A stretch of DNA of 64,000 nucleotides from Tethya wilhelma (taxonomy: Eukaryota; Porifera; Demospongiae; Tethyida; Tethyidae). Below, piece by piece: positions 29,749-56,400 of the stretch (within the stretch, counting starts at the first letter, position 1; each line of letters opens with the position of its first letter). The DNA is taken from the NCBI GenBank assembly GCA_964030475.1, contig CAXIPT010000006.1, positions 4,598,210-4,662,209 of the forward strand, read 5' to 3'. The translations under genes and the position numbers were made by a program. The notes under the pieces were generated by a model, which saw only the letters and a program-made list of their open reading frames with translations, ran no database searches and was not told the origin of the DNA.

Positions 29749-30993
29749 TTAAAATACACTGGTGTATTCAGGTGGCTTATCACTAGGATTGTCACTGGGT
29801 ACTACAAACCCCAAAGGAGCAGGGTTAGCAGAAGGTCCACCAGGAGCTGTTGGTAATGGTGGGGGGACACTAAACCCCCCAGGCTGTGCAGGAGGAGGGG
29901 GACCACTAGAATTGGGTGGACGGTAGGGGACGTTGCCTAGCAACAGAGGTACATTGAATGTAGAATTAAGAGCCCAAGGAATGACGGCCGTCAAGCGGAG
30001 CATGTAGCACAACTTGATGTTAGGAGTGGATATAGTTGGTTCTGTGGCAGGTACTCTTAGTGGTCCTAGTTCAACGGCAGTTGTTGTTCTTGGCAGAATA
30101 GGCTGACTGGTCGCAAGGGCAATAGTGGAAGAGGAGTGGTGGTGACTGTTTCTCTGAGCATTGAGCATAGTAAGTGCCAGCTTTTACGAGAGAGGCTTGA
30201 ACTGTGATGGTACGTCTCGAGCCATTCTCCACAGTGATGTTGAGAGGGATGGTGTCCCCATTGATGCAGTATGCAGTCCGATCTATCTTCACATTCACCT
30301 CTATTTCTCCTGACGCACAGCACATACATCCGACTCGTTTCTTTTCTGAGTGTCTCAGCGGTCGAAACAGCTGTGGCTGCTGATTGATATCCACGACTTC
30401 AGTCACTTGTATCGGAGCTTCAATACGATGGTCAAACTTCAGCGAACCTGTTCCAATTCGTCCCTGGATCATATATTGAACACGACCATAACGACTCTGA
30501 TATGACGTCGGGCAGGTGGCAGGGAGAGTGAACTGAAACTGGTACTCGTACGATCCCGGTCCGATCGTTCCCGTAGGGGACTGATCTTTGCTCCACACAA
30601 CAGCTGTCTCATCGACATACTTTTCCGTTGAAGTGTACTCCACTGCTGAATTTTGAGTATACACTGTCCAGTGTACGTAGGAGGAACCAAAGATTCCAAT
30701 TTTAACAAATTCAAAGTTGTAACTCTTTGCTTCATCCAGTGAGAAAGATAGCGTACCAGAGACTTTTGACCCTGGAGTGTAGACCTGAACAAAGCAGAAA
30801 TCATATGAAAACTTAAAGCCTACATAAGTTATATAAAATTAATTTAGATCTAGTACAAAAATAAATCTTGATTGACATGCAGGCTGGCTACCGCAAAACT
30901 TCGATGAAACTGATAGACCCGGGGCGGCGGTAGTCCAGTTTTAAAGCTCACCTTTCCTACAGCTTGATTAAGAATAATTTTAAAATCTCTCAT
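29749..30993 (-). pseudogene. Alpha-arrestin (ARRDC-like) gene B, one 7-bp frameshift
   Basis: Exon 1 is 30952-30993 (MRDFKIILNQAVGK) and exon 2 is 30784-29749. The whole arrestin fold region is readable (SYVHWTVYTQNS, WSKDQSPTGTIGPGSYEY, CINGDTIPLNITVENGS) and the C-terminus ends with one PPEY motif (DKPPEYTSVF). A tandem duplication TGAGCATTGAGCAT (30155-30161 and 30162-30168, plus strand) shifts the frame after AGTYYAQ and leads to a premature stop. Gene C has no such duplication at the matching place. If transcribed it would give a truncated product lacking most of the C-terminal arrestin domain and the PPxY motif. Could be a recent pseudogene, a polymorphism or an assembly error. Confidence 0.7.
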
Positions 30994-31119
30994 CTTGTTT
31001 GAGAAAATTAACTATAGTAGACTGATTCAGTGATGAGTGAAGAGATTTTTATACGAAGAATCGGTTGTACGCAAACGTCATCAAACCGGAAGTATTTGTA
31101 TTATACTGGAAATTAACTA

Positions 31120-31871
31120 AAATTAATGACCTGACATGTCGCGCGTCGAAAGCTGTACAGTACAGTACAGCTAGCTAGCTGCCACATAAGTGACTCATTT
31201 TACGTCTACATGTACGTCTAACCGCTTACGTAATTACTGCGAATTAATTGCGCGCGCGCGCTAGCTGCATGCATGCAATGCATGCATTTTTTTTAATTTT
31301 TCCTATGAAATTTTAAACATAAAAGTTTAGTTTTCTAACAAGTGATGTAACTGATGCTCTTGCTATGATGCAGTGGTTGCACTGACTGGGAATAAAAGAA
31401 GAATGCCATGGTCCATTGGACTAGGAGTGTTCTATATTATGTTGAATGCGAACTCTTGTATATATAAGTCTAGTCACAACAAAACAACATTGCACCCTTG
31501 GAAGCATGACTTAGAGGTCAACTTGCTTACTTCCAGTGTCCCAAAAGCAACAAAGAACATATGTGACTGCTGGGATTCCCAACTTCTGGGAATTTAACCG
31601 GAAGAGATACAACCACACACCCGGTACGTTCGGAAATTGGTACCTCCTTAAATGTTGCTGAATCAGCAGAAAACGGAGGAAAACTTTGCTTCATTTTGAT
31701 GGCGTGGCATGCAGCAAAAGATTGGGTAATGGTCGTAAAAATTAATTGGGAAAATAATTATGCATTATATTAAAAACTGTTGGGTTTTTTTGTTTTTTTG
31801 CTTTTCATATCTTAGAACTAAAAAAAATTAATATTATTATATATAAAGGTGTACATAGCTGTATATAAGCA
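31120..31871. other. Intergenic, possible transposase remnant
   Basis: The frame at about 31373-31597 (TGNKRRMPWSIGLGVFYIML) loosely resembles the C-terminal part of piggyBac-type transposases (RRWP...LFYxMLDxxxxNA). It is short and has no flanking domain. The rest holds TAGC/GCGC low-complexity sequence near 31165-31285 and nothing else. Confidence 0.25.
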
Positions 31872-33252
31872 CTAAAATACACTGGTGTATTCGGGTGGCT
31901 TATCACTAGGATTGTCACTGGGCACTACAAACCCCAAAGGAGCAGGGTTAGCAGAAGGTCCACCAGGAGCTGTTGGTAATGGTGGGGGGACACTAAACAC
32001 CCCAGGCTGTGCAGGAGGAGGGGGACCACTAGAATTGGGTGGACGGTAAGGGACGTTGCCTAGCAACAGAGGTACAGTGACTGTGGAATTGAGAGCCCAA
32101 GGAATGACGGCTGTCACTTGAAGCATGTAGTTCAACTTGAGGTTGGAAGGAGAGGAAATAGTTGGTTCTGTGGCAGGTACCGTTAGTGCTCCAAGTTCAA
32201 CGGCAGTTGTGGTTCTTGGTTGGATCGGCTGACTGCTTACAATGGCAATGTTAGAAGAGGAGTGGCGACGATGACCTTGAGCGTAGTAAGTGCCAGCTTT
32301 CACGAGGGCGGCTCGAATTGTGATGGTACGTCCCGAGCCATTCTCCACGGTGACATTGAGAGGTATGGTGTCCCCATTGATGCAATATCCAGTCCGGTCT
32401 GTCTCAACGTTGACCTCTATGTCCCCTGACACACAGCACATACATCCGACTCGCTTCTTTGCTGAGTGTCTCAGCGGTCGAAACAGCTGTGGCTGCTGAT
32501 TGATGTCCACGACTTCAGTCACTTGTAACGGAGCTTCAATACGATGGTCAAACTTCAGCAAACCTGTTCCGATCCGTCCCTGAATCATATATCGAATACG
32601 ACCGTAATGACTCTGATAAGACGTCGGGCAGTTGGCAGGGAGAGTGAACTGAAACTGGTACTCATACGATCCTGGTCCGATCGTTCCCGTAGGGGATTGA
32701 TCCTTGCTCCACACGACAGCTGTCAGATCGACATACTTTTCCGTTGAAGAGTAATGCCGTGTTTCTGTTCGCCGGTTGTCCCCTGAGCCTGTCGAGTGAG
32801 ACTCCGTCCAGTGCACGTAGGAGGTGCCTATGATGCCAACTTGAACGAAGTTAAAGCTCTCTGCTTTGTCCAGGACAAAGGACAGTGTTCCAGAGACCAC
32901 TGATCCCGAAGTGTAGATCTGAAACAAAGGAAAACATAATAGTATAGACAACAAAGACGAAAGTTTGGAAAAGTATCAACAAACAGAAGAGAAACTGCAA
33001 CAGTTTTATAATAGTCTGCAGATTGGAAAGAAGCTGTCTTGTAAATTAGACCAAAATTTAAGCAATAAGAAAACTTATAACATGCTTCTATAAAAGCTGG
33101 GCAGCTTGCAGCTAGGAAAAGCTTATGTATCGCACAGCTGCTAAAAATCATCTTGATAGCATGCATAGATTTTTCTACTTTCATAATTTATTATATCTAT
33201 AGCTACTCACCTGTCCTGGAGTTTGGTTAAGAGATATTGTGTAATCTCTCAT
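31872..33252 (-). CDS. Alpha-arrestin (arrestin domain-containing protein), intact gene C
   Basis: Exon 1 is 33211-33252 (MRDYTISLNQTPGQ) and exon 2 is 32918-31872, giving 362 aa. The arrestin N domain spans about residues 5-155 and the C domain about 170-290 (CINGDTIPLNVTVENGSG, LNYMLQVTAVIPWALNST). A proline-rich tail (PPNSSGPPPPAQPG) follows and ends in a PPEY motif two to six residues before the stop. Known for the family: ARRDC proteins are cytosolic or membrane-associated adaptors that recruit NEDD4-like ligases through PPxY to cargo such as receptors. The 14-residue first exon is shared by all three copies in this cluster. It lies just downstream of the RASA1 3' end, 436 bp away, on the same strand. 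It is the only copy without a frame break. Confidence 0.85.
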
Positions 33253-33688: not shown

Positions 33689-33772
33689 TCATGAAGACAC
33701 CATCTTGTTTGTGTGCTTCTTCTCTGCTGTTCTAAGGGACTGTATCACACCAAGAAGCTTCTTTACTTCAGG

Positions 33773-33823
<51 letters not shown>

Positions 33824-35200
33824 CATGTGTTTCCATGGTTGTATAACACTTGTATACACATGCAAGCCTCACAGCAATGTCATCAATGAAGACTCTCATG
33901 TGGGCCATATTTCTCTGGATAAAAGGATTTAGAGCGGTCATGAACCGTTCCTTTGCCTTGAACTCCACAAGATTGGCAATATTTATAACAGACTTTGCCA
34001 CCAGTTTCAGAGTTCGGTCTGCATTAGGACTCGGAGGCTCTGAAATGGGAACAAAAAAAAGAACAGAAAAAACAACATCTTTACACTAGAAGAGTGTACT
34101 GAGGAAGCTGGTCTAACCTGATGTGAGGTCAAACAGCTGTGGCTTCAAGAGGGCGGGGCAGATACACCTCAAAAACAGAAACCCACTGAAAATGAAAGGA
34201 GGCCATGAGCATAATTAAATTTAAGGGGAAATATTTGTTTCATTGGTATCTCAGCCTGGAAAGGTCGTAAGAATGATATATAATCTTAAGATGATTGTCT
34301 AAAATTGTCATAATTATTTAATAAAATCCCCTGACTGGTCATTTTGGGTCAAAATCAAACCTACATGTATGATAATTATCAAAATAGATATCATTTGAAA
34401 GGTCTTTTCATGCTGATCGCAATTTACATGTATGGTACAAATCCCAGCTTCACACGACCTTCCTACACTGAGATACATACATTGGATAGAATGAAAGTCG
34501 AGCCTGAATCATATGTCATGTATAACTGTACATGACCAAAAATGAAATGGTTCACATACCTGACAGCTCTGGTCCTTACTGATTCATCAGTCGGCCATTT
34601 CTTGACAACTTGCTCTTGAAGATGACGACAGATGTATCTCAGTGTGCTGAGTACAGAGAGAGAGCGAGCGAGAGCGAGAGAGAGAGAGAGAGTAGCTTAG
34701 AATAATAGCTTAGATCAAAAACCATTTAACAAAATCAGTTTGAACCTTCAGGGCCACCATACTAGTGAACTTACGGTGGACAATTCTCAGTTGACTTAAA
34801 GATGGTGGAGAGGACATGTTGAAGATGCTTTTCAAGTCTGTCCAAGTTTCTGGGAAGATCAGACGTTCTAGCCAAAAGGTCAGGGTTCAACTGTGAGCAT
34901 CATGGAGATAACAAAATGAAACATTAAATGCATTGAAACAAACAAAACAAACAAACAAACAAACAAAGCTTGAGACAAACAGCTCATGAGCGGCCTTACC
35001 TCACACGACTCTGGGCTCTCCAAGATCTGCTGCACTGGCTCTTTGAGGATGGAGTGAAGGTACTTGGTGGCCGTCAGCTTCATGAACTGGTCCATCAACA
35101 TGGTCGAGAGGGTGCTGGCTCTGAACAGGGTGGCAGTGTTCTCTGTGTGAAGAGAAGGTGGGCATTAATAAGAGCACTGTAATAAGACAATGGCTTTGAT

Positions 35201-35240
<40 letters not shown>

Positions 35241-38200
35241 CACCAATATTTCAGTTTGCTTAGGAACTGGTATAGAAGCTAGGTTCTATCTAAACGTGGG
35301 CAAGTCATGGATATTATAGATAGATGCATGACTAAATGCCTCTTTTTTTCTAATACAAATAGAGATTTCCTGATCTACGGTACAAATAGAGAGAGCTGTG
35401 AATATAATAATATCGCAAAGTAACATATATTTATAGCAGAGTAACAAATTCACCTTCATTTTCAATGGTCTTCTCGAGACAGGCAGTCAAGATGGGGATG
35501 ACCTTGTCGTAGTGGAGGAAGATCTGGATGAGAGTGGAGGCCAGCTCAGCATGGTGGTCCTTACACACCTTAGCCAGCGCCTCTATGATGGCCAGGTCAT
35601 CGCTGAGGATTAGCTGGGGAGAGGAACAATGACAAATGAGTTTAAAAAAACAGTTACTTCCTTGCTTCCAAGACTTCACTGCTTATTTTGATTAATTTAT
35701 AAAATATTATTTGATTTTACTACATAAGGTTTACTGCATACTGTTATCTGTATACTGTATACTGCGTACTGCGTACTGTATACTGCGTACTGCATACTGC
35801 GTATTGCAACTGCGTACTGCATACTGTATACTGCGTACTGCGTACTGCATACTGCGTACTGCATACTGCGTACTGTACAGTGCAACCAGGTAAAAGAGCA
35901 AAAATTTGACTTTTTTGTTATTCACTAGATGTCTTCCAGACTGTATGTGGTATGGAAGTATTGACAGTAGATATGTGTTTAGTAATCACTAGTGTGGCTT
36001 CAGTGAGTGGGCGGGTCTAATCACGTGCTGCCTGTTGGGCGTGGCTCACATTTTACTCAGTAAGGTAGAGAAAAAATGTTAGCTATAAGATCTGACAAAC
36101 TACTGGGAGTTAAGGAATGAAACGCTACATGCAGTTAGACATTGCATTGATAATTCTATGTACCAGACTAGAGCTTTTAACTCAAGAGTTTCAGCCCATA
36201 ACAGTTGCATAAAGGCTCAAAACTAGCTAATTTTTAGTGCAAAAACGTTAGCTATAAAAAATCAACCTTCTCCTGGGAGTTAAGAACTCAAATTTTATTT
36301 GTGTATAGACAAATGAACTCTCAAACTGTGTGCAAGATTTGGTAGTGAAGGCTCTTATCGTTTGTTAGAAACGGTGCATTTTTTTAGCATTTTTGCAGCT
36401 TTTTGCAACTTTTTGCAGTTTTTTGCAGTTTTTTTCAGTTGCATGGCTTCATAAAATAACGGTAGTGATAGGGGAAATTTTTGTGTTTCAAAATCGCTCA
36501 AAAACAATGAATTGGTACTTACCAGCAACAAATATAGTGAGTACATGCAGTTTTGGCAGGTTTTGAACAAATTTTCAAAATTTTGCTCTTTTACCTGGTT
36601 GCACTGTATACTGTATACTGTTCTGTATACTGTATACCGTAGATCGGGAAATTTTCGTCGCTAAATATTTTCGTCAAACTGGGCGAAAAATTATTTTGTA
36701 TGGCGATCTTTACCGAATCGTCCGCAATGACGAAAATTAAACTACGGGAAAATTTAACAGGCGAAATATTTTATCAACGAAAATTTCCCGATCTACGGTA
36801 CTGTATACTGTATACTGTTAACCAGTAACTGTTAACTGTATACTGCATGTACATTGTACACTGTACACTATATATAAATTTGTAAAACTAGGCTATGGAC
36901 AACCCAAACAAAAACTCATACAATGCCACACTATCATCAAATGCCCCACCCACCCACAGATGGACACACCTCTTTCAGTTTCCGGTATTCCTCCAGCGGT
37001 AATATTGTGAGGTCTTTGAAGTTTGCCACGAGGCGCAAAGACCCTCGGGCCGTTCTAGACCCTCCCTGTAACATCTGGTGCCATTGGTCGTCCTCTTGAC
37101 CGTTGGGGAGGTCCGAGAAGTGGATGTTTATTCGCCCTGAAGGGTAATGATTACATAATACTATAATATTATAGCACAAAATATTGGCAGGAATAAAATT
37201 TGGCGGATTGTCGATAATTAGCGGATTTATTTTGGCAGTAACACATGCAGCAATATATGTATTTCATGTGTGCTGAGAACATGTGCCAATTCAAGAACCT
37301 TGACGGCTGTCACAGGAGGGTGGTGCTAGAGACACAGCAACATCGACTCAAAATCTGCAAAAATGACTGTTTGGCACATTTAATATTGTCAATCCTTACC
37401 AAAACCGCCAATCCGCCAAATTTCGTGTTATATGGCAATCAATAATAGAGGAGGTTATGTAATTGCTGATTCAGCAAGTAGGTTCATGAGTTTAGTCACA
37501 CGATCAGATGCATTCTCAAGATCACATGACTGTCACATGATATGTAATTTACCTAATGTTTTCTCTCCAAATTTCATGCTTCTTCCTTTTCCTGACCTTT
37601 GAACCTCGCAGCTGAACGCATCAGCATAGGGAGGGAGATCCCTATAAATTATTAATTAACAATTAGCCCTTAGAATAGAAATGGAAAGCTAATGTGTTGG
37701 TATGGAAACAGAATATGTGGCTGTGGAATGGAAATAGAAGTGACTATTTGGTATCGGGTATGTGATTTTGTGTGGTACTAGAATGGGAATAGGACTTACT
37801 CAAATATGAAGCACTCGTCAAACACACAGGGTAGTTCAGTGGAGACTCTAGTCCTAGCAATACAGGCACCATCGATGAAGATGAGAGAGTAGACCTGAGA
37901 GAGAGAGAATAATTAGCGGATTTATTTTGGCAGTAACACATGCAGCAATATATGTATTTCATGTGTGCTGAGAACATGTGCCAATTCAAGAACCTTGACG
38001 GCTGTCACAGGAGGGTGGTGCTAGAGACACAGCAACATCGACTCAAAATCTGCAAAAATGACTGTTTGGCACATTTAATATTGTCAATCCTTACCAAAAC
38101 CGCCAATCCGCCAAATTTCGTGTTATATGGCAATCAATAATAGAGGAGGTTATGTAATTGCTGATTCAGCAAGTAGGTTCATGAGTTTAGTCACACGATC

Positions 38201-38589
38201 AGATGCATTCTCAAGATCACATGACTGTCACATGATATGTAATTTACCTAATGTTTTCTCTCCAAATTTCATGCTTCTTCCTTTTCCTGACCTTTGAACC
38301 TCGCAGCTGAACGCATCAGCATAGGGAGGGAGATCCCTATAAATTATTAATTAACAATTAGCCCTTAGAATAGAAATGGAAAGCTAATGTGTTGGTATGG
38401 AAACAGAATATGTGGCTGTGGAATGGAAATAGAAGTGACTATTTGGTATCGGGTATGTGATTTTGTGTGGTACTAGAATGGGAATAGGACTTACTCAAAT
38501 ATGAAGCACTCGTCAAACACACAGGGTAGTTCAGTGGAGACTCTAGTCCTAGCAATACAGGCACCATCGATGAAGATGAGAGAGTAGAC

Positions 38590-38637
<48 letters not shown>

Positions 38638-40519
38638 CAAGGAGTAAAATGGCTACCTTCCCTCCCTCACCTGAGATATATTCTTATCCTTGGTGATCTT
38701 ACAGTCCTTCACAACCAGTGAGAGAGAACGGACCTGTTGTATCTCTTCGTGCTCCTGTGTTGTCCCCGGCAACGTACACTCACGCAACAGGTAGAGCCAC
38801 TGCTGTGCATTTTCTGCTGTTTCAGCAGCAAGGTAGTAGAAGGAGAGTTCATTCAAGTAGCGTAGGACCACTACCAAACAATCATTCCTGTAATTAGCCG
38901 GGATAAGATAGATGGCTCAAATAACTTTGTACCTTGCAAAATACCGTATAGCGTGTAAATTTGGTGAGAATTATTTATTCTGCAAATTGCCAAACAATTT
39001 TATACGCACATGCACCAATACAAACAATGCAGAGTGCAGATTTAAATAGCCAAATTTAAATCACCAATCACACTAAAATGCGAATTCACCAAATTTACAT
39101 GTACCTGCAAGGAAGGCCCAAGAACAAGGCTATCTCTTACTTTCTCTGGTACATGATTAGCTTCGGCTAGTTCCCTGAACTTACCTGCCCAGCAAACTAG
39201 GATGAACGGCGTAGACTTTGCACTGTTTCAAATCCAGCAGTCCTCTAGCCCGGTGACTCTATGAATAGACAGAAGGAGATATTGATAAAATTTCCCCACA
39301 AATTGCCACCCGACTCACCGTCTCATGGTCGTAGTACAGCAACTTGTGGTCTTTGTAGTTGACAACGAAGTAGAAGTTCTTCCACTTCCCATACACAGGG
39401 CTCTTCTTGCCTGCAGGCAATACAGGGAGATGAATACCGAACTGAGCATGCTCAGTAGTGAATGCTGAACTGAGCGTGCTCAGAAGTGAGCATCAAACTG
39501 AGCATGCTCAGTAATGAATGCTGCACTGAACATACTCAGTTAAACATTGCTGAGTAAGCGATCTTTTCTGCCTGATCAGCATTTTTCCTCCGTGTACTAT
39601 TGGGCATACCTCCGTAAATGTTGCTGAATCAGCAGAAAAAGATTGCCGATTCAGCAATTTTTAAGCATGCTCAGTATTTAGTGACAAAACTAGAGATTAC
39701 ATATCACCACAAAAATAATTACGGTATTTTAATGATTATACATCAACACACCCCCCACCCCCCTGGCTGTACAAGAGGGCCTAGCCAGCTGCCAGTGACA
39801 GCTGCCAAGGAATTTACTGACTGTTGGTTTGTTACAGTGCCACACCTTTTCTGAGCAGGAGCATGCCACTGCGATCAGCGACGTGGGAGACTATCTTGTG
39901 TTCTATGACAGGCGTGGCTGGAGCTGGGTGGCCACTCTGGTCGTGGGTGTCAACCTGCATGAATTATTAATGAGCCTATATTAATATTCATAAGCCTAAT
40001 TTTATATTCATGTGCCTACATAATATTCTTGAACTACCTAATATTCATGAGACAGACACGGAATAATATTAATTTTATATATGCATAATACATTGTGTGT
40101 GGATGATTATTATACTGTATATATTAAAACTGGTTTGAAGAGTTTTATAACAAACCAGTTTGACGGGTTTTACCGGTGGAAGAGGGTCTCCTAGTTTGAG
40201 TCCATTCAGGATGACCTCGTTCTTGTAACGCTCGATGATATCTTCAATTCTACAAACAAAAAAAAACAACAAAATTTCAATCATTTTCAGTTTCAAGGTC
40301 CAGTTTTAATAATATACTAAAATGAGATTAAGGAGCTAGGTTTAATTAGACTCACGAGTTAAAAGGTCTTCCCCCAAACACGTAGTAACCAGTGACAAAC
40401 TTGGTGATGAGAAATCTCTGGACTTTGTCTGGAGTTCGGACACAGAGAGAGTAACGAACCTCATCCTCAGCTCCTGGGGAGCCAGCTTTTCTTAGGAGGA
40501 AGCTGCCAACCTTGCCATC

Positions 40520-40565
<46 letters not shown>

Positions 40566-41117
40566 AGCCTTGTTCTCAAACTCATCACACGTCAAACTCA
40601 CTTCTCATGAGGACATCCACTGATTCGTCTCTGGAAATGGAACCATGGAACCAAGGCTTGCCAAGGTTGGGATCTTCACTCGTCTACATAGACACAGTCA
40701 CAATAATGCATGAAAAACAACCCTGTCAGGTTTTCCAAACAAACATCATTAGCGAGCAAAAGGACCAACCAACTTACCACGTCTTCCAAAATGACGATGG
40801 GTATGAGCCCGCTTTCCCCCGTCCTCTGGGAGCGACCCCACCCCCAGTCATTATTTAGCTGACTCAGCAGTAAGAACACTTCACCGGCCTCGATCCTGTA
40901 TTGGGATTAGAGTTGGTAAAGGGTTGTCAAATGTAAAAGCTACTGCTAGCAGAGGTGAGTGAATGTTGTAGGCAGGTTGTTAGGGAACAGGAGAGAAGGC
41001 GTGAGAAACAAGGGTGGGCTGCACTGTCGACAACACACTACAGCTGTAGTTAATTAGCACACATCAGTGAAGACATTTCGCTTTAAAGCACGGGGATTAT
41101 TTGTCTTAAGTGGGCCA

Positions 41118-41728: not shown

Positions 41729-42457
41729 TCTCTCTCTCTCTCTCTCTCTCTCAATGATAGGCAAGGGGGCCAAGTTTCCATCGACCCCCTACACACGAAC
41801 ACCCCCCTGACCAGTCCATACCTTGGGGGGCACTATAGGTACCTCCAGTGACTCATTCTCAAGTATACATGAGCAGTTGGCATAGAAACCAATGAGATCA
41901 GAGAGGGAGAAAAACTGCCGTCCTCCAATATAGTAGTTGCCACAGTTGGAGTTGATCTTAAAATGGTGAACAATGCCCGTCTTGCTGAGAAACGAGATGG
42001 CATAGTCACCAGGGAGCTGGACGCTTTCTCGAACAAGATAGCCACCATTTTCTCCAACCATGTCCAGTCGTTCACAAGCTGTGTGACGACTGATACGACC
42101 ATGGAACCAACTATGAGTGAGTGAGTGTGTGTGTTTGTGTGTGTGTGACTATATCTATCATTGTATGGCACGAGCAAGTATTGTACGAGTGAAAAGATCA
42201 ATTTCTCTCTGACTAGCTGCCACTCACGACTCGAGAGGCGGCGCTGTGAGGTCAAGGTTCTCCTCTTCTCCCTCGTCTCCATCTGACAGCTCCTCCGGCT
42301 CTTCGTGAAGGTACATGCGATTGATGTACTGGCCCACGAGCCTCGTGCTCATGTAGATGGGCTCGGGAATGGTGTCCGGGTCTGGATCGGCCGGGTCTGG
42401 GACGTCCGTGCCTCCATCTCCTTCGTGTTCAAACCATCTGTTGTTGGCGGCCATCAT
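33689..42457 (-). CDS. RASA1: RASA1 (p120 RasGAP) orthologue
   Basis: Twenty-one exons with consistent phases sum to 898 aa when one copy of a duplicated exon pair is used: 42457-42228, 42110-41822, 41238-41168, 40895-40778, 40683-40602, 40518-40356, 40249-40174, 39954-39846, 39410-39319, 39258-39185, 38887-38671, 38589-38495 and 38336-38248 (repeated at 37894-37800 and 37641-37553), 37136-36970, 35613-35454, 35142-35000, 34890-34775, 34646-34560, 34185-34118, 34039-33873, 33772-33689. Domain order is SH2 (WFHGRIS, YLVRES), SH3 (GDLE-like [11 protein letters not shown]), SH2 (WFHGSIS, FLLRKA), PH, C2, RasGAP. The GAP arginine finger sits in [15 protein letters not shown], and [14 protein letters not shown] and [11 protein letters not shown] match the family. 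It stimulates GTP hydrolysis by Ras and docks on phosphotyrosines. Very like vertebrate RASA1 except for a shorter N-terminus and C-terminus. Confidence 0.93.
33775..33822. repeat. (GT)n microsatellite at the last RASA1 acceptor
   Basis: On the minus strand this CA run ends in CACTAG, the acceptor of the final RASA1 exon 33772-33689. Confidence 0.8.
35878..36606. mobile_element. CAGTGCAACC-ended MITE in a RASA1 intron
   Basis: Ends CAGTGCAACCAGGTAAAAGA and TCTTTTACCTGGTTGCACTG are perfect inverted repeats. The interior has AT-rich repeats (AGCTATAA, TTTTTGCAG) and no coding frame. CAGTG termini suggest hAT origin. Confidence 0.7.
36635..36800. mobile_element. TACCGTA-family MITE, GATCGGG subtype
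   Basis: Ends TACCGTAGATCGGGAAATTT and AAATTTCCCGATCTACGGTA are perfect inverted repeats that share the variant GATC. Confidence 0.75.
37162..37440. mobile_element. TACCGTA-family MITE, GCACAAAAT subtype, degraded
   Basis: Left end around TATAGCACAAAATATTGGC and right end CGCCAAATTTCGTGTTATATGG. A part is repeated at 37908-38135 because of the 695-bp duplication. Confidence 0.55.
37213..38602. repeat. 695-bp tandem duplication inside RASA1
   Basis: Positions 37213-37907 and 37908-38602 are, as far as can be read, identical. Each copy contains the C2 exon pair (95 nt plus 89 nt) and part of a MITE. There is no N at the junction. The junction lies between a GA microsatellite and ATAATTAGCGG. 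The right copy ends in a longer GA run. Confidence 0.9.
38942..39104. mobile_element. TACCGTA-family MITE, GCGTGTAAA subtype
   Basis: Left end TACCGTATAGCGTGTAAATT and right end CACCAAATTTACATGTAC, an imperfect inverted match. In a RASA1 intron. Confidence 0.5.
41122..41752. repeat. Cluster of CT, GT and CA microsatellites around the RASA1 SH3 exon
   Basis: (CT)n at 41122-41164, (GT)n at 41240-41282, (CA)n at 41383-41419 and 41653-41723, and (CT)n at 41729-41752. The run at 41240, read on the minus strand, forms the CACACACAG acceptor of the exon 41238-41168. Confidence 0.85.
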
Positions 42458-42663
42458 CTTCTGTTAGCTTGATGGCATATGGTTGGCTTCCCGGTGACGT
42501 CACTTGTAAATTAGCCGAGTAGCGCAAATTAACTTGACGACCCATTACCAATTTGTGGGGAAAATTTAATACTTTGAATACCAAACAAGGATGCACAAAA
42601 CAGCTTAAAAAACAATAACGTAAAAATGCTCTGTGTATTTTATTTATCATTAGTTCTTATGGT

Positions 42664-45406
42664 CTAGTGGGCAACTAAGGGAGTGACCTGCAGAAGGAAA
42701 ACAAATGCATGATAAAGGTGTGGTATCACTAATAATAAGCAGCCTGTTAGATAAAACTCTTCACTACAGCCTACATACTTCTGGTGGTGGAGCTGGGATC
42801 TTCAAGTGTTGGTTTTGTTTGACAGTGGAGTACTTGGAGTAGTAGCCAATGAGTTGCTCCAATGAAGGGAACCATTTATTTGCCTGTCCCATTGCATTAT
42901 ACATACCATTCATTGAATTGATTTTATAGTTGAAGACACAAAGATGGCGGTCCAGGAAGGAGAGTACAAAGAGACGTGGGTCGCTCTCGCTGTTGCGAAT
43001 CAAATAGGCACCGGGCTTTCCGATGGCTTGCAGTCTTAGAGACGCAACGTCTCGGCTTATTCTACCATGGTACCAACTATAGAAGAGATTTAGATGCACA
43101 ATCATTACAATTAATAATGAAAAATGTGATTGTTTTATTAACTGCATCAGTGTAGTTGTTATCATAGCTTCACCTTGATGATGGTGGTGCCGACATGTCC
43201 AGTTTCTTCTTGTCTTCTTCCTTGAGTGGTGTGGCTGTCTCTTCTTCATCACTTACTTCAAAATAGTCGGCTTTCCCTGATGAAAATGATCAATAATAAT
43301 ATTTACAGGGGCAGAAGTAATTAAGACTCATTGCCATGCATCGTACTGGCTAGTTTACTTGAATTAATTCATGTCAAGATACATAATTGTGTTATCAATA
43401 TGGCACTGACTGAGTGAACTTCTCAGTATTGTAAATATGCTTCTATATAATTGAGCTACATGAAATTGATTATTACTGAATTTTGTGCAACTATAAAATT
43501 ATAGCCTATAGAGTTAGAGTTTAATGTAATGAATGATATTCTATGCATAGCAATGCCTTTTTTGACTGCTACTCATACTATGCAATCAAGTAGCAATGTT
43601 TGGCTACAAATAAGGCTGCCAGCTGTTCAGTCAGACTGCTTGCGGTTTGTGTGTGTGTGTGTGCGGTGGTTGATATAACAGAAACGACCTTTATGGGTGA
43701 TTACTCAAGCGAAAAATTGCCCTAATATACTGAAAAAATGTGTCATATTAGCGTTAGTACAGTAACTACCGCTAAGTCTTCTTACCACTAATAGTCAGCC
43801 AGTTGGACTTTTCATCGGGAGGGCTGCACGATGCTTTGCTTTTACCATTGAGCCAGTTGGACTTTTCTTCGGGAAGGCTGCAGGATGCTTTGCTTTTACC
43901 ATTGAGCCAGTTGGATTTCTCATCGGGAAGGTTGCAGGACGCTTTGCTCTTACCACTGAACCTGAGCCAGCCTGATTTCTTATCGGGAGGACTGCTTGAC
44001 ACTTTGCGTTTCTTATGAGACACTAAATCTGCTGCAGCTGAACCGGGTCGGACCAGCTGCTGAGGTTGTGGAGGTGTAGGAGGCCCACGATGGTTTGAAG
44101 ATGGCTCAGCAACTTCGTAACTTAATGGAGTCCGAGGAAAACCGTCTAGAAGGTCCGGTGTCGATTTGAAGATAGTTTTTCTTGAAAGTTTTCCTGTAGT
44201 TGCGGACCTTTCACTTCTTTTTGGTAATGGTGGTGGAGAATGGTGTCTTTGGGGCATGTGGTCACCATTTCTCCCAGGCAGCTCGGCTGAAGTGACTCGT
44301 TTAAAGGATGGTGGATGGATACCATTCATCATTATTGGTTCCCTGTGAGGTAGAGGATTAAGATAGTTGGAATCTGCTGGAGAGTTCCTTCCACCTTCTC
44401 TGAGGCGTTGAACTTCAGCTTTGGCCATTTGCAGTTCGTCACTGAGTTCCCTCTTTCTTCTCTCGGCTACCTCTAGTCGCATCCGCAAGATTTCCACCTC
44501 TTCACTTGCATCATAATGTAGACTGTCTAAGTACAACTGAGATTCTTTCACTTGGTTCAGTTTGACACAAATTTCAGAAGCTTTGGGTCGTTTTCCACTG
44601 CGATCTTGGAGACAATTGATGATGGTGTGTCTCAGAGGATGTTTCATGTCGATCATAGTGATGTGGTTTCTTCTTTTCTCAATTTCTGACCCTCTTGCAG
44701 TGTCACTTGGGTCTGGATACAGCCTGGTTATGATCTGAACCATAATCACTCCAAACGAAAAGATGTCAATCTTTTCTGTGTATTTTGGCATTCCTGATGC
44801 AATTGTTTTTGCTTCTGGAGGCATGTAAGCTGGGCAGCCAGGACAGAGAGTTTGAGATCGTAACTTTGGATTGATATCAATTTGCGAATCCGCCATCTTG
44901 AGCATCCCAAAGTCAGTGATTTTGGCTCTACACCCGGCAACAAGTAGCACATTGTTTCCAGTCAGGTCTCTGTGGATGACTCCATTGGAATGGAGATAGT
45001 CTAGTGCCAGAGCAATATCCTGAGAGATGTTAATTTGAATGTGAAGTGGAATGGGGTTTCTGGATCTTTCCAGAAATGACGTCAAGCTTTCATCCATGAG
45101 CTCCATGAGGAGAACTGGCTGACCTGTTTTTGGGTGTTGATAGGTGGCTAGATATTGGACAATGCAAGGATGTTTAACTGCACTTAGCATTTCACACTCT
45201 TGTTCAAACTTTGATAAGATCTTGTTGCCTGGATTACTATAGACAAACAGCTCTTGATGTAGAATTTTAGCTGCACAGGGTAGCTGTCCGCAGACTGCCT
45301 TGCAAACTTTTCCATAAGCTCCTCTTCCAATCTCTTTGCTCTCAAAGAGCTTGACACTGTCATAGTCAAACTCTTTCACTCTGCGTGGCTTGAGTAAAGA
45401 AGTCAT
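42664..45406 (-). CDS. TKL-type kinase with coiled coil and RASA1-like C-terminal SH2 (kinase 1)
   Basis: Exons 45406-43786, 43276-43174, 43076-42779 and 42687-42664 give 681 aa with closed phases. The kinase domain (about 18-280) has GRGAYGKV, the lysine in CAAKIL, HRDLTGNN, DFGM and MPPEA, so it should be active; HRDLTGNN is closer to tyrosine-kinase-like Ser/Thr enzymes than to classical tyrosine kinases. A coiled coil (about 290-335) and a linker with an 18-residue tandem repeat (KSKASCSLPDEKSNWLNG) follow, then KKLDMSAPPSS and an SH2 domain (SWYHGRIS, YLIRNS). The last exon adds VTPLVAH. The linker and SH2 exon match RASA1 exon 1/2 in sequence, intron position and phase. The stop lies only 206 bp from the RASA1 ATG. 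Kinase-then-SH2 order is also known in Dictyostelium Shk proteins. Substrate unknown. Confidence 0.85.
43800..43990 (-). repeat. 54-bp tandem repeat coding for an 18-aa unit in kinase 1
   Basis: Three 54-bp units (starting near 43800, 43854 and 43908) plus a diverged 60-bp unit encode copies of KSKASCSLPDEKSNWLNG with small substitutions. In frame throughout. Confidence 0.85.
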
Positions 45407-47091
45407 CTTGCTACGTTAACGTTTGAACGTCTATAGAGCTAACTTGAACTGATACTGATATTGTGTGATCTTTTGACTGCAATTAAGAATAAATTATATT
45501 TAATATACCACTGATTATTGGCGAGACAATGTAGACTCGATCTCTAAACTGAGTACGTCCTTTGCTTTAAGTAATTAAAGAACAGGAAGTTGAAAAATGT
45601 GAGGTATTTGTACTCCCACTCCTACACTATAGTGAAGCTGCTTGGTTACCCCAACATCTGCTGATGCTCAACCTGAGTACGCACTATCAAAGAATGACCT
45701 TATAGATCTTGAGTTCACAACTATTCTTCCTTATATGCAACACATTCTCAGTGCTATGGATAGCATAAGTCAGGACAACGGCACATCATTTCTGCATGCA
45801 TGCCTGGGCCCACTCATGGATCAGTGACAGCTGGTATGCTAGTGTGAGTGTACTGGAATGCCATACACACGTTATACTGTCCTTCTACTAACATGAGCAG
45901 ACTGGCATAATATCGATTCATTAGTCATAAATTCACGGGCCATAATATTTACTGAGGCAGCCTGATTCAACCCGGCATCAACCTGCCCACCTAAACTCAG
46001 TCATGAAAAAAACTAAAACTGTCAATAATATATTAAGCTTATATATACTTACTTCTATATAGAGAGATCCAGGTACATGCCAAGTCAGTGTATATATAGA
46101 AGTTTGTTTTTTGGTTTTCAGCTTTGATGCACTTGCGCGGCTTATAAAGTTATGATGCGCGCAGAGCGCAATTTGTATCACGTGCACTAGCTAGGTGACG
46201 TCAGAAATCGTTTTCACATGTACACAATACTATCAAACATCAGAACATACTAAACATGAATTCAAAGAAGTGAAGCATCACAGATTGATTTGAGTCCTGA
46301 CTTGAATGTTCAAATCTTTCTCTGCAACATCAGCAGCTATTCACACACTGGGGGGGAGAGGTACAGGCTGCATATGGAAGAGAGAAGAGCACCACATCCT
46401 TAAGAGTCAGAACGTTAGTTTAGTTTTAGTTTATGATTACCACCTGGTCATCCCCACATGTGTGTTGTTGTGGAATGAAGGGAAATTTTTACAGAAACAA
46501 TGTCCGACCATAACCACTGATACGTACACATGTGTGTTCCCATGGTAATGAGTATGTAACAAACTAACAAATAAAGATAAGGTCAAACTTGCAGCTGGAC
46601 TAAAGTTCCCTCACACAACTCCTACATATGACACAGCAGATTCACCTACATTGCAACATGTACATCTGTCTATCTGTCACAAGGGGAACCACCTGCTGTT
46701 ATTGACTAGCAGCTGTCATTGATAACTATACAATCACTATTATAGCAGGCCAAGCAACAGGCAACATTTTGTTTGCTAGCTGGGTAGGTTAAAGGGAGGT
46801 TGGATTATGTCTCGCTTGGAGACAGCTGTGTCTAGGCTATGTGCACCACTGGCTACGAATTCTCCCGGAGCCAATCAGCATATAAAGATACAGAAAAATG
46901 GAATTTGATTAATGGAGCATATCCTCACAATGTGATAGTCTTGAGTGACATAATTGACTACAAAGCATACTGTGTCTGTGTGCATCTGTGCCGGAAGGTC
47001 TATCCCTGCACCCGATAGCAGCAGATCTCATTACATCGCTATCGCAACTATTTATAGTAATTGATACATAATCATAGTTATTTTACTATAT
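45407..47091. other. Spacer between the two kinase genes, no coding signal
   Basis: It should contain the 3' end of kinase 2 and the promoter of kinase 1. No exon with support, no recognisable element ends; several short frames are chance. Confidence 0.5.
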
Positions 47092-49276
47092 TTAGCACAA
47101 CAAGCTGACTACTCCTAAATCACAGTTAGCACAATGAATGACATCACTCTGCACTAGCAATTGCACGACATCATCCACTATTGATTGATATGACATCATC
47201 ATCCTTATAGAACTCACAAAAGGGGGTGGTATGGGAAAGTCCAATCTCTCCGAGTGTTTCTCCACCACGGAGCTGTACTTGCTGTGGAAGCCAACTAGCT
47301 TGGTGAGGCTGGAGAACCAGACACTCCCTCCGATGTTGAAGCGTCCGTTTCTCTCGACGATCCTAAAATGGTGGCATCTGTCTTCCCTGTCCAGGAAGGA
47401 GAGGACGTGAAGGGTGTCACTCTTACGGATCAGATAAGAGCCAGGCTTTCCCACGCTGATCAGCCGATGACATGCCTGCTCTCTGTTTACAGGACCATGA
47501 TACCACCTAGGTGTGGAAGGGATGAAGGTTTTTTTTTCGAAGATATTCAATGCATACTCTATAGCTAGAAGAGTATTGTTTTTTTTCTTCTAAATCTACC
47601 ACTAATATGATAATAATAATTTTATTAACAATAGGAGTATGACTTTAATAACACTGGTAGAAGTTTTTAAGAAATAGTGATAAATTTTCTCACCATTAAA
47701 CAATCAACCTAGCAACCAACTTACTCTGAAGGTTGGGGAGCAGAGAGGTCGAGTTGAGCCTCGAGGTTTGTGCTTCTCACCATGTCATCTTGATGGACAC
47801 CATCCTCAGGAGGGGGCACATCTTCATACATGTCTGGCAGTGGAGAGAGGGGGGGAGGGAGGGAATATGTAAACACAAAACCAGGAAACTTCAAACTTTC
47901 AAACCCACACATGAAAATACAATGGGAAATTTTTGAGATCTAGAATTCTAACCCCAAGTCATATCAAATTCAAGATGAATGATATTACCACTGAGCTGTA
48001 AGAACTCACAGTTAGAGTAGTAAATTCTATTTCAGTGCACGTATATATCTTTGCTAGAGAGTGAGGGTGCTTCTAACTCACTCGTGGTAGCTGCCATTGA
48101 CCGGGGGTATCCGGGATAAGGACTAAGAGACAGTCTCCCCAGCGATGGTTCCATGGGTCGCTGTTCGCTCTCCTCTCTCAGTCTCCTCACTTCTTCCCTC
48201 GTCCTCTCCAATGCCTCTTCCAGTGATGTAATCCTAGCTGTTGCCATGGCAACCTGTTCCCTCAAACCATCACACTCCTCTCTCTTGTCCTCTAGCTGGG
48301 ATCGCAGTCTCCTCACTTCAAACGGCAACTCTTGACTCTCTGAAACACTCTCTGCATAATCTTCTCGTTCTTTGAGAGTGGATAAAAATCGGCACATTTC
48401 TACAGACGTGGGTCGGCCCTGTTCCTTGTCGCTGAGACAACGGAGTGCAATTGGTCGGAGAGGGTGGTCTACGGAGACCAGTTCAATGTCTTTCTGTCGT
48501 CGTTCTTGTTCCGGTACCGGTACTTCCATGATTCCAATCCGTTCATCTTGAAACGATCTTTTTGCCACGCTCGGATCGGGAAATTGACGTGTAATGATCT
48601 GAATAATGAGCACTCCAGTGGCAAATACGTCAAGTTTAGCCGAATATTTCGGTACAATTCTCAGAGCTTCGGGAGGCATGTAGACGAGGGTACCGGGACA
48701 CTGTGTCAGAGGGGTCATACGGGGATTCACCTCGACCAATTTTGACATTCCAAAGTCGGCAACTTTGGCTCGCGTGCCGGCTAGAAGGAGGACGTTGTTA
48801 CTGGAGAGATCGCGATGGATTATCCCGTTGGAGTGAAGAAAGGAGAGCGCCATGGCTACGTCGTGAGTGATGTTCAGCTGGATGTGATAAGGAACTGGTA
48901 GATCAGCTTTACGGGAATTGTCGAGAAACCGTGTCAAGCTCTCGTCCATGAGCTCCATCAGTAGAACAGGCAGTCTAGACTCTGGTTCATGATACTTGCC
49001 CAGATACTGTACGATACACGGATGGCGTATGCCACTGAGAAACTCACACTCTCTGTCAAACTGTCTCATCATTGTCGGATTTTGGTCGGTCACTTGAAAG
49101 AAGACTTGGTGCATGATCTTGGCAACGCACACCATCTCATTCACCACCGCTTTGCACACCATGCCGTAGGAGCCGTTGCCGAGGTAGTCGTTGCGAAGAA
49201 GTTGGACATTCTGGAAAGAGAACTCCATTCCTCTTCTTGGCTCCTGCCTAGAAGGCAAGAGAGGGCTGGCTGTCAT
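47092..49276 (-). CDS. TKL-type kinase with coiled coil and RASA1-like C-terminal SH2 (kinase 2)
   Basis: Exons 49276-48082 (ATG MTASPLLPSRQ; donor GTGAGTTAG), 47833-47725 and 47506-47218. The kinase domain (about 25-290) shows GNGSYGMV, the lysine in CVAKIM, HRDLSSNN, DFGM and MPPEA. A coiled coil (about 320-375) precedes the linker LEAQLDLSAPQPSE and the SH2 domain (WYHGPVN, YLIRKS). The SH2 exon ends at a GTGAGT donor in phase 0. Either the intron is retained, giving a 41-residue tail ending at 47092, or a short last exon near 47105 supplies the stop; the 3' end is therefore uncertain. Paralogue of kinase 1, same strand, same exon phases, with different linker length and no 18-aa repeats. 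Confidence 0.82.
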
Positions 49277-53472: not shown

Positions 53473-56400
53473 TTATTTCATTACCAATCCCAAACGTGGG
53501 TCCAGATCTTGGGACTTCAACTTCCATATAATATCATGTACACTCCTTGAATTGATTCTGGAACTAAAACGAATACGGATTAGGAAGTTTTTTACAGTCT
53601 GGTTGGATTGAAGAGCACTATTGAGTTCAAGAATGTCATCTTTAGAAATTTCAGTACAGCGCCACGTCACAGATTCCAGTGTTCGGTTAGTACGGAGCAG
53701 TTCTACCAAATTGAATGATGACAAATTATTGTCAGATCCTTCACAGTTACATGGTTCGATGTATATATTCTTTAGATAGGAATTCTTACACAGTGCTGCA
53801 GTGATTAAACGGGATGATTTAGCGGTAGTAGCATAAATGTTTAATTCAGTTAGATTGTTGTTTTCTTCCAGCAGTTTGATGGCTCGATCATCATTTGTAT
53901 CTAGAAAAGTAAAGGTAATTGTCTCCATAGAAGATGGTGAGAATACAGTCTTCAACACTTGCTCTGTGGTTTCAAGTGATCGTTGCTCATGCCCCAATCG
54001 AAGCACCTTCAGACTAGAAGATGATGATATCAAATAAGACAACGCTTCAATGTCAGCACAACCATAGCTAGTGTCATCCATGAGGAGAAAATTTAAATGC
54101 TTGAGATGAGATAATGCGTGAAGAAGTTTCACCAATCCTCCCTCACCTACTGGGTTACCATGGATATCAAGTTTTTTCAGGTTGGTCATGAGAGGGATGG
54201 AGTCAGCAAGACAATTTAAAGCAGCTGAATCTAGATCACACTTGTACAGGTCAAGTAAGACAATGTTGTTGCGTTCCCTTTGAGGTGGACCTTTATTTGG
54301 AGATAGCAGCCCGTGGTTCAGCATCTTAAATAATGTACTACCAGGAGAATCACAATAACGCATGATCAACCTCCACCTACATTTACTGTTGGTCACACAA
54401 TAACCAAGAGCATAGCAACTAAATGCAGAAAGATTGTAAGCATGAAAAGAGAAAACTGTATCATGTGGATATTCTTTCAACATTATGTCACAGTCAACTT
54501 TATCTTGTGCTTCATATATACATTCAATCAAGAATTTACTGAGTTCAAATTCTCCTAAGTAAATATAACTACTTTTTGATTTAACATATTCCCAATTGAT
54601 TCCACTGAATCCTGTCAGACCAGCTACAAACCTCCAGACCACATCCCAACTAATACCAGCTCTGTGATACTTAGTAAATACTCTCTGTTGCTCATATGTT
54701 GGAAGCTGAGAAATGTGAAATGCAGCAAGAAACTCCTGGAGAGTGAGATGCAAGAAGCTGTGAGAGATGGAGGCTTTTCTTCCCATGTACATCTCTGTTG
54801 GGGAATTCATAAAGTTAAAATGGATGAAATTTTTCGGCAGCTTGTGAAATATCACCTCATCTCTTTCAAGGCCATCAAAAGCTACCTTAGCCAATAAACT
54901 AAATGGCTCCTTTAGCTGAGATGGGAGGTCTTCTAAACTTTCAGGAAGCTGTTCAGCTAATGGGTCATCCTCACCTAGGTGTCGCTGCAGTAGTGTCAGA
55001 CTCAACTCAGTGTAGAGTTGAGTCATGGTCCGGGGAATAGGCCGATTAGCTGTTCTATTGTAACTGTAGGTTTCTGCTATTATGGCACAATTTAATGGAA
55101 TATACATCAAGCTTCTAATAGGTGGATGGATAGATATGTAGGTCAAGAAGTCAGCTAGCATATCAGGTTGGGAAGCAAAAAAGGCTCTAGCATGGTGCTC
55201 TATGTGCTCCTGAATAAAGCCAATCACTTCTATTCGCTTGTGTATTTGAGGTTTGGCTACCTTAAGAAGGTCTGCAGTAGCAGAAGGACGGCTAGTAACC
55301 AGCACTGTGCAATGGGATAGGTAGGTACCACGAATAAGATCAACAAATATGGAATCCTTTTGAAGGGAAGCAGGGAGTTCATCAAAGCCATCTAGTACAA
55401 ACAGCACACCCTTTCCCTCACAGGCTTCAATCTCAGCTGCTACAGCTTCCTGTACCTCTTTGTTTCTATGGTAACATAAATATTTCACATTCTGAGCTTC
55501 TTGTACTGGTTTCTCCCGCAGTCGAAGAAGGATTACGAGTGAATATTCTCTCAAAGCATCAATTTCATCCCACCTCCTACAAAGCTCCCCCACACATGTG
55601 CTCTTCCCAACACCAGGTGCACCATGTATGTAGACACACTTCATTCTACACTGACCTTCTACCGGCTTCATCACCTCCTCTAGTTTGATTGGTTCCTTCT
55701 TCTTAAGGATCTGATCAACATGTCCATGAAGAGTGGCTCTTGTGAACTCATCTGCTTCCGAGCGACTAATTTGAACATTCTTTACCAGAGCTAGGTTGAT
55801 AAATTCCCCACATGTGAGGTTTGGGAACTTGCCTGATGACATAATTGCATTTTTATACACTCCTTTGAGATATGTAGCATAGCGCTCGATTGCCTGGGGT
55901 ACAGCAGGAGTTAAAGTTGCTGAATCTGTTAGCAATAATTATTATAATTGATTGACACATATATCACTATAAAATATTCAAAATTTATAATACACTGTTA
56001 AATTTTGGTGTGTTAAAAAACGAAGTATGTAGTTTTTGGTGACACTTTCCATGTGGAAGTACCGTATATAGCGGGAAATTTTTGTATGGTGGAAATTTTC
56101 GTATTTTTCGTATGCCATTCGAATGTACGAAAATTAAAACTGCGAAAATTTAAAATCCGCATTTACTTTATACGGGCGCGCACCGCGTATACGAACTACG
56201 AAAAAATTTTCTGGTGCTTTTATATGAAATTTTGCACCAACGAAAATTTCCCGCTATACGGAAGTGTGTACTTTTTGGGGACAGTTTACATGTGGCATTA
56301 GCACACTTAGTTTAAAGTGTGTAGTTTTGCTTTCGTTTTAACACACCAAAATTTAACAATGTACTCACCAAAATTTAACAGTGATAAGCAAACACCATCT

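Follow-up and report, generated by a model that had tools for sequence, protein, structure and literature searches.

This analysis concerns a window of 64,000 nucleotides (the whole stretch of DNA that was analysed) from the demosponge Tethya wilhelma, G000:C6:4598210-4662209, in a genome of 124.6 Mb and 204 contigs, and three neighbouring genes in it: two kinase genes whose kinase domain is followed by an SH2 domain, and a gene for the RasGAP protein RASA1. The genes of the window are spliced, and these three follow one another in tandem on the minus strand: kinase 2 (49276-47218), kinase 1 (45406-42664) and then RASA1 (from 42457). Splice models were drawn by eye from the sequence alone, on the basis of its reading frames and GT/AG sites, and were then checked by script. 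These models agree with a preliminary description of the locus, which had placed both kinase genes directly beside RASA1 on one strand. The features of the three genes, in window coordinates, are as follows.

48082..49276 (-): kinase 2 exon 1, with a TKL-type kinase domain and a coiled-coil-like stretch, ending in phase 1 (splice model, Pfam)
47725..47833 (-): kinase 2 exon 2, an acidic linker that ends LDLSAPQPS in phase 2 (splice model and linker codon pattern)
47218..47506 (-): kinase 2 SH2 exon of the RASA1 N-terminal SH2 (N-SH2) type, WYHGPVN...FPIPPPF, ending in phase 0 (Pfam SH2 3.1e-12)
43786..45406 (-): kinase 1 exon 1, with a TKL-type kinase, a coiled-coil-like stretch (by eye), a proline-rich region and tandem repeats, ending in phase 1
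43174..43276 (-): kinase 1 exon 2, an acidic linker that ends KKLDMSAPPSS in phase 2 (splice model and linker codon pattern)
42779..43076 (-): kinase 1 SH2 exon of the RASA1 N-SH2 type, WYHGRIS...IPAPPPE, ending in phase 0 (Pfam SH2 2e-14)
42664..42687 (-): predicted last coding exon of kinase 1, VTPLVAH and stop, with acceptor CTGCAG
42458..42663 (-): gap of 206 bp between the stop codon of kinase 1 and the start codon of RASA1
42228..42457 (-): RASA1 exon 1, ending in phase 2 (splice model and linker codon pattern)
41822..42110 (-): RASA1 N-SH2 exon, WFHGRIS...VPIVPPK, ending in phase 0 (Pfam SH2 3.7e-18, donor 4.3 bits)
33768..40906 (-): remainder of RASA1 with SH3, second SH2, PH and RasGAP exons, bounds approximate, C2 exons read by eye

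The exon-end phases 1, 2 and 0 are identical in the two kinases, and those of RASA1 are 2 and 0. Exon 2 of kinase 2 ends, in its splice model, in ...AQLDLSAPQPSE in phase 2; the model of this gene runs as far as the SH2 exon, short of its last coding exon. An AATAAA is seen by eye shortly past the stop codon of kinase 1, inside the 206-bp gap. The end of kinase 1 exon 1 (window 43797-44007) consists of short tandem repeats with a unit of the KSKASC-PDEKSNWLNG type (157 bp self-match, 83%). The neighbouring gene had been named RASA1 in the preliminary description, and its domains confirm the name: the first SH2 exon scored 116.9 bits against the human RASA1 N-SH2 in a search of solved structures, a piece of the second SH2 was detected at C6:4638558, and Pfam matched the downstream pieces to PH at 2.9e-11 and RasGAP at 2.5e-9 (hand-joined pieces), with SH3 just under its cut-off at 1.1e-4. 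The C2-like piece gave no Pfam match. Inside RASA1, moreover, a 695-bp segment is duplicated head to tail with 100% identity (window 37214-37908 and 37909-38603); the duplication holds the apparent C2-domain exons and is either a very recent event or an assembly artefact.

Both kinase genes carry a kinase domain by Pfam, PF07714 (5.6e-37) in kinase 1 and PF00069 (6.7e-37) in kinase 2, and beyond the kinase and one SH2, Pfam gave only below-cut-off matches in either gene, with no SH3, PH, RasGAP or second SH2. Coiled-coil-type Pfam families stayed below their cut-offs in kinase 2, and the coiled coil of kinase 1 was read by eye. The best solved-structure matches of the kinase 2 domain were IRAK4, then BRI1 and TNNI3K, which are TKL-group kinases. 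The TKL-type assignment made earlier is thus upheld, directly by this search in the case of kinase 2, and in that of kinase 1 only because it resembles members of the same family. The motifs AAK/VAK, HRDL..NN and DFG look intact by eye in both. The family is large: kinase 1 drew 612 candidate matches in the genome (140 scored) and kinase 2 drew 639 (136 scored), which gives a minimum of 136 members with a score, most of them lying in one long open frame. Both kinase 1 and kinase 2 are ~48-60% identical in the kinase domain to the full or near-full family matches listed, and kinase 2 was third by score among the other kinase 1 matches listed (283.0 bits, the best other being 284.7). Among the family members listed, only kinases 1 and 2 were seen by eye to adjoin RASA1-type SH2 exons, and in one further listed case an SH2 exon is found ~1.3 kb upstream of the kinase and reads as part of an adaptor gene of its own.

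Further candidates for an SH2-kinase were rejected. For the C2 kinase near L059, the SH2 reads by eye as an upstream adaptor, and the frame of the kinase begins with a start of its own. A cluster of genes with a C-terminal SH2 on C9 (L024, L026, L040) was set aside because the kinase-family profile found no member there: over the loci of this cluster and L064-L066 (C9:448000-473900 minus ~100 bases) the best score was 5.4 bits, against 378.6 for the L059 positive control, and because 12% of L064 and 36% of L026 were masked, a kinase could still be hidden in this cluster. Kinase 1 was also scanned against a prokaryotic contig collection; the 73 pattern matches obtained included no relative, a result that is uninformative for sponges.

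The SH2 domains of both kinases are of the RASA1 N-SH2 type, as had been claimed from the first reading of the locus, and this assignment was obtained from the solved-structure search, the profile ranking within the genome, the tree and the linker motif. Without the linker, the kinase 1 SH2 scored 73.1 bits against the human RASA1 N-SH2 (next family 46.7) and the kinase 2 SH2 scored 68.7 (next family 44.8), a margin of 24-26 bits over the next solved family; with the linker included, the scores against this domain (single-domain entry 6pxb) were 84.9 and 75.6, with the next families at 54.1 and 50.5. When a profile of the human RASA1 N-SH2 was run over 64 scored SH2 sequences of the genome, RASA1 (103.7), kinase 1 (75.6) and kinase 2 (69.3) ranked ahead of the next sequence at 48.1, and in the return ranking with a profile of kinases 1 and 2, RASA1 came at the top of the remainder with 87.6, the next again scoring 48.1. 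A genome search with the linker and SH2 of kinase 1 found, after itself, kinase 2 (83.1 bits), RASA1 (70.6), the locus L012 (48.7) and then a score of 33.6. Each kinase SH2 is slightly nearer to the other than to the RASA1 of the genome (profile scores of 77.6 vs 69.3 and 80.2 vs 65.6); the two are 48% identical to each other, and kinase 1 and kinase 2 are 42% and 45% identical, respectively, to the neighbouring RASA1. In a tree of 25 SH2 domains, made from the 22 intact domains among 63 fetched hits and three added sequences, with interrupted domains left out, the RASA1 N-SH2 domains and the kinases formed a clade supported at 84.7/90 (Shimodaira-Hasegawa-like approximate likelihood ratio test, SH-aLRT / ultrafast bootstrap, UFBoot), and the two kinase domains grouped with each other at 18.6/86. 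The FLVR-type arginine is present in both kinases (YLIRNS and YLIRKS).

The SH2 exon is preceded in both kinases by the RASA1-like linker LD-[LM]-[ST]-AP. A codon pattern for this linker, CTNGAYMTNWSNGCNCCNCMN (L-D-[LM]-[ST]-A-P-[PQ]), had five matches in 124.6 Mb, of which three are the genes described here, within ~5.5 kb; the reversed control pattern had none in the whole genome. The pattern was written after the three sequences had been seen and finds them by construction, and the informative figure is therefore that of only two other matches genome-wide. The rarity of the linker together with the SH2 evidence indicates that the linker and the SH2 probably arrived as a single piece.

The boundaries of the SH2 exon were less telling than the preliminary description had supposed. 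A phase-2 intron just before the SH2 tryptophan is predicted in all three genes, as described there, and the finding of this phase in most unrelated SH2 genes of the organism had been named as evidence against kinship. Among the 63 fetched SH2 hits (64 in total, the piece of the second RASA1 SH2 being unfetched), 50 could be counted, and 13 were dropped because the hit did not start at the first W/Y of the domain. An AG at the position that a phase-2 intron upstream of the tryptophan would require, which is a candidate acceptor and not proof of an intron, was present at 21 of the 50 SH2 starts, and at 18 of 47 when the three genes of the window were excluded. The evidence named against kinship was thus found in part, the phase being common, although not in a majority. 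By phase, such an AG was found at 21 starts for phase 2, six for phase 0 and none for phase 1, whereas chance alone would give about three of 50 (1 in 16) in each case. Among the 21 are a Src-like cluster on C2, in which the frames run on past the SH2, and other SH2 genes; this boundary therefore does not demonstrate kinship, and we rejected it as proof because it is too frequent in the genome. The phase-0 end of the exon after a proline-rich tail, also claimed for all three genes, proved more specific. With the donor cut-off lowered, an earlier one having missed the kinase donors, the 21 phase-2-start hits were surveyed up to 45 residues past the domain: in ten the SH2 is intact within a single exon, and four of these ten have a phase-0 donor candidate 19-22 residues past the domain, namely RASA1, kinase 1, kinase 2 and the adaptor L012 on another contig. 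For the other six, two had only weak phase-1 candidates and four had none within 45 residues. When the 5' condition was dropped, phase-0 donor candidates past the domain were also found, at the higher donor cut-off, in L006, L015, L031 and L039. Given L012 and these four loci, the 3' boundary is informative, yet not private to RASA1 and the kinases.

L012 itself (G000:C1:3132571-3132882) is a fourth RASA1-like SH2 with phase-2 and phase-0 bounds, in what appears to be a proline-rich adaptor gene. By eye, LD-x-[ST]-AP is missing from its linker, and no kinase of the TKL-type family was found near it in C1:3129000-3138000 (L012, L067 and L068; best score 3.4 bits).

We consider it likely that these kinases arose when a kinase gene was fused to 5' exons of RASA1, that the fusion gene was probably duplicated once, and that the SH2 domain recruits the kinase to RASA1-type sites. 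A gene of the TKL-type family, most members of which have a single exon, would have come to sit just upstream of copied RASA1 5' exons, and splicing of this upstream kinase onto them would then have yielded a kinase with the linker and N-terminal SH2 of RASA1 at its C-terminal end. We infer that RASA1 was the source of the SH2 module because it is present in human and here, and because of the single-exon style of the kinase family. Kinases 1 and 2 would probably stem from a single duplication of the fusion gene, and they still lie head to tail upstream of RASA1. As for this duplication, which was part of the original proposal, the exon plan common to both kinases speaks for one fusion that was later duplicated, as does, weakly, the similarity of the SH2 domains, whereas the kinase domains do not resolve it. 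The SH2 may bind phosphotyrosine sites like those of the RASA1 N-SH2 and thereby bring a serine/threonine-type kinase to them, and the kinase-SH2 protein could then compete with RASA1 for docking or phosphorylate proteins at the same place.

Several observations weigh against this reading. The donors 3' of the SH2 exons of kinase 1 and kinase 2 are weak (1.3 bits each with a standard matrix), and the exon joins of the kinases are predictions from sequence alone. At the position of the SH2 beta-D histidine, kinase 1 apparently has an asparagine, while RASA1 and kinase 2 have a histidine, and the affinity of the kinase 1 domain may differ for this reason. The clade of the kinase SH2 domains with the RASA1 N-SH2 agrees with the grouping expected in the preliminary description. 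However, approximately unbiased (AU) tests on the 96 SH2 sites rejected none of ten constrained topologies, including those that separate the kinases from RASA1, and a grouping of the kinase SH2 domains with Src-like kinases was excluded only by the bootstrap proportion from resampled estimated log-likelihoods (bp-RELL) and the expected likelihood weights (c-ELW), not by the AU test. The tree is therefore supporting rather than decisive evidence.

The timing of the events is the point on which the proposed fusion meets its strongest competitor. In the best SH2 tree, the RASA1 N-SH2 of the genome groups with human RASA1 (85.8/87) and the kinases fall outside, and the kinase SH2 domains are 46% (kinase 1) and 48% (kinase 2) identical to human RASA1, which is at least as high as their identity to the neighbouring RASA1. 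Together these values speak against a recent local copy, and taken at face value they would place the split before the sponge-human divergence. It is accordingly possible, though we hold it to be clearly the less probable account, that the kinase SH2 left the RASA1 N-SH2 lineage before sponges and humans separated, so that the cluster would be what remains of an old duplication, or the kinases would have been lost elsewhere. The kinase branches (0.67 and 0.52) are not much longer than the RASA1 branch (0.53), which is consistent with such an early split. On the other side, a topology with the duplication in the sponge lineage is only 3.0 log-likelihood units worse (p-AU 0.55) and is not rejected, and a younger event would more readily account for the tight adjacency of the three genes. 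The local duplication of the RASA1 5' module in the sponge lineage, as originally put forward, is therefore possible but was not borne out, the best tree splitting earlier and neither order being rejected. Adjacency favours a local event and sequence an old one, human RASA1 being the single outside RASA1 compared.

A different use of the SH2 tail, which we regard as unlikely, is that the proteins act mainly as competitors or scaffolds that occupy RASA1 docking sites, with kinase activity there being secondary or absent. The FLVR-type arginine is kept in both SH2 domains while the kinase domains differ widely (51% identity), which argues weakly for this use. However, the SH2 domains differ from each other just as much (48%), and the catalytic motifs appear intact by eye in both kinases.

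The kinase domains also bear on whether there was one fusion or two. Identity between the kinase domains of the two genes is 51%, a lower value than each reaches with several other family members, and kinase 1 is the last among the 136 matches listed for kinase 2. A kinase tree was made from kinases 1 and 2, the C2 kinase and 17 of 20 fetched kinases, the other three lacking an open frame that contains HRDL; kinases 1 and 2 were sisters in it at 43.3/61 only, and AU tests on this tree rejected no topology. Two members of the TKL family might thus each have gained a RASA1-type SH2 cassette, or the cassette might have passed between them; the kinase 2 SH2 is, moreover, equally near to human RASA1 and to kinase 1 (48% each). 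We nevertheless think this rather improbable, because the two genes have the same exon plan, the same phases and an acidic linker exon, and because their SH2 domains are slightly nearer to each other than to the RASA1 of the genome, both by profile score and by identity (48% vs 42 and 45%).

The three genes could also form a cassette with compatible splice sites: phase 2 is found both at the end of exon 2 in either kinase and at the start of the SH2 exon of RASA1, so that an in-frame joining by read-through across the 206-bp gap is possible. A kinase-RasGAP read-through product, with kinase exon 2 joined to RASA1 from its first SH2 onward, might therefore be made beside the separate kinases, and all of these products would act at the same phosphotyrosine sites, as an ancient device that was retained, possibly coupling Ras inactivation to a kinase; we give this little credence. 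Finally, an origin of the kinase SH2 from another SH2 family, with the likeness to RASA1 due to chance or convergence, is compatible with the shortness of the domain, the AU tests that exclude no alternative and the common phase-2 boundary, but it is very improbable in view of the margin over the next solved family without the linker, the profile gap of more than 20 bits to the other SH2 domains of the genome, and the rare linker and 3' boundary in common with RASA1.

Three further features were observed apart from these genes. In window 29749-32975 there are two tandem gene copies, arrestin-like by eye, that share 82% DNA identity across 835 bp; one of them (31872-32975) forms a single open frame, and the other (29749-30838) is divided between two frames. 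An open frame of 821 residues at window 53473-55938 has by eye the look of a NACHT-LRR (NLR-type) protein. Elsewhere in the genome, the SH2 locus L044 (G000:C9:3609233) encodes an AIG1-type GTPase, a hydrophobic stretch (by eye) and an SH2 start in one frame (Pfam AIG1 4.2e-16, SH2 6.2e-9), an unusual combination; the SH2 starts of L045, L048 and L049 (C2:11932439, C2:11927515 and C9:3613626) are very similar to that of L044 and perhaps belong to a like architecture.

The kinase-RASA1 fusion proposed here resembles several known systems in part. The kinases resemble RASA1 (p120RasGAP) in their best solved SH2 match, in the TAPP-type linker directly before the SH2 (kinase 2 having APQ instead of APP), in the proline-rich tail and in exon bounds like those of the adjoining RASA1. 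In contrast, they do not follow the SH2-SH3-SH2-PH-C2-RasGAP order of the whole protein, having only a kinase and one SH2 domain above cut-off. The SHK kinases of Dictyostelium have a TKL-type kinase domain first and an SH2 last, and kinases 1 and 2 resemble them in this domain order; they differ in that the SH2 here is of the RASA1 type and adjoins RASA1. With cytoplasmic tyrosine kinases of the Src, Abl and Syk type they have in common an SH2 and a kinase in one protein, but here the kinase precedes the SH2 and the nearest solved kinases to kinase 2 are IRAK4, BRI1 and TNNI3K. To our knowledge, TKL-type kinases that carry a RASA1-type SH2 and adjoin RASA1 are new, while the kinase-then-SH2 order itself is already known.

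At this locus, neighbouring genes visibly have a signalling module in common, in which the targeting domain of a Ras inhibitor is carried by two members of a large kinase family; among the other members listed, none was seen with this domain of RASA1. If the binding sites are also common to these proteins, an early-branching animal could set a kinase against or beside a RasGAP at the same receptor, and the locus would then offer a test case for the rewiring of SH2 circuits.

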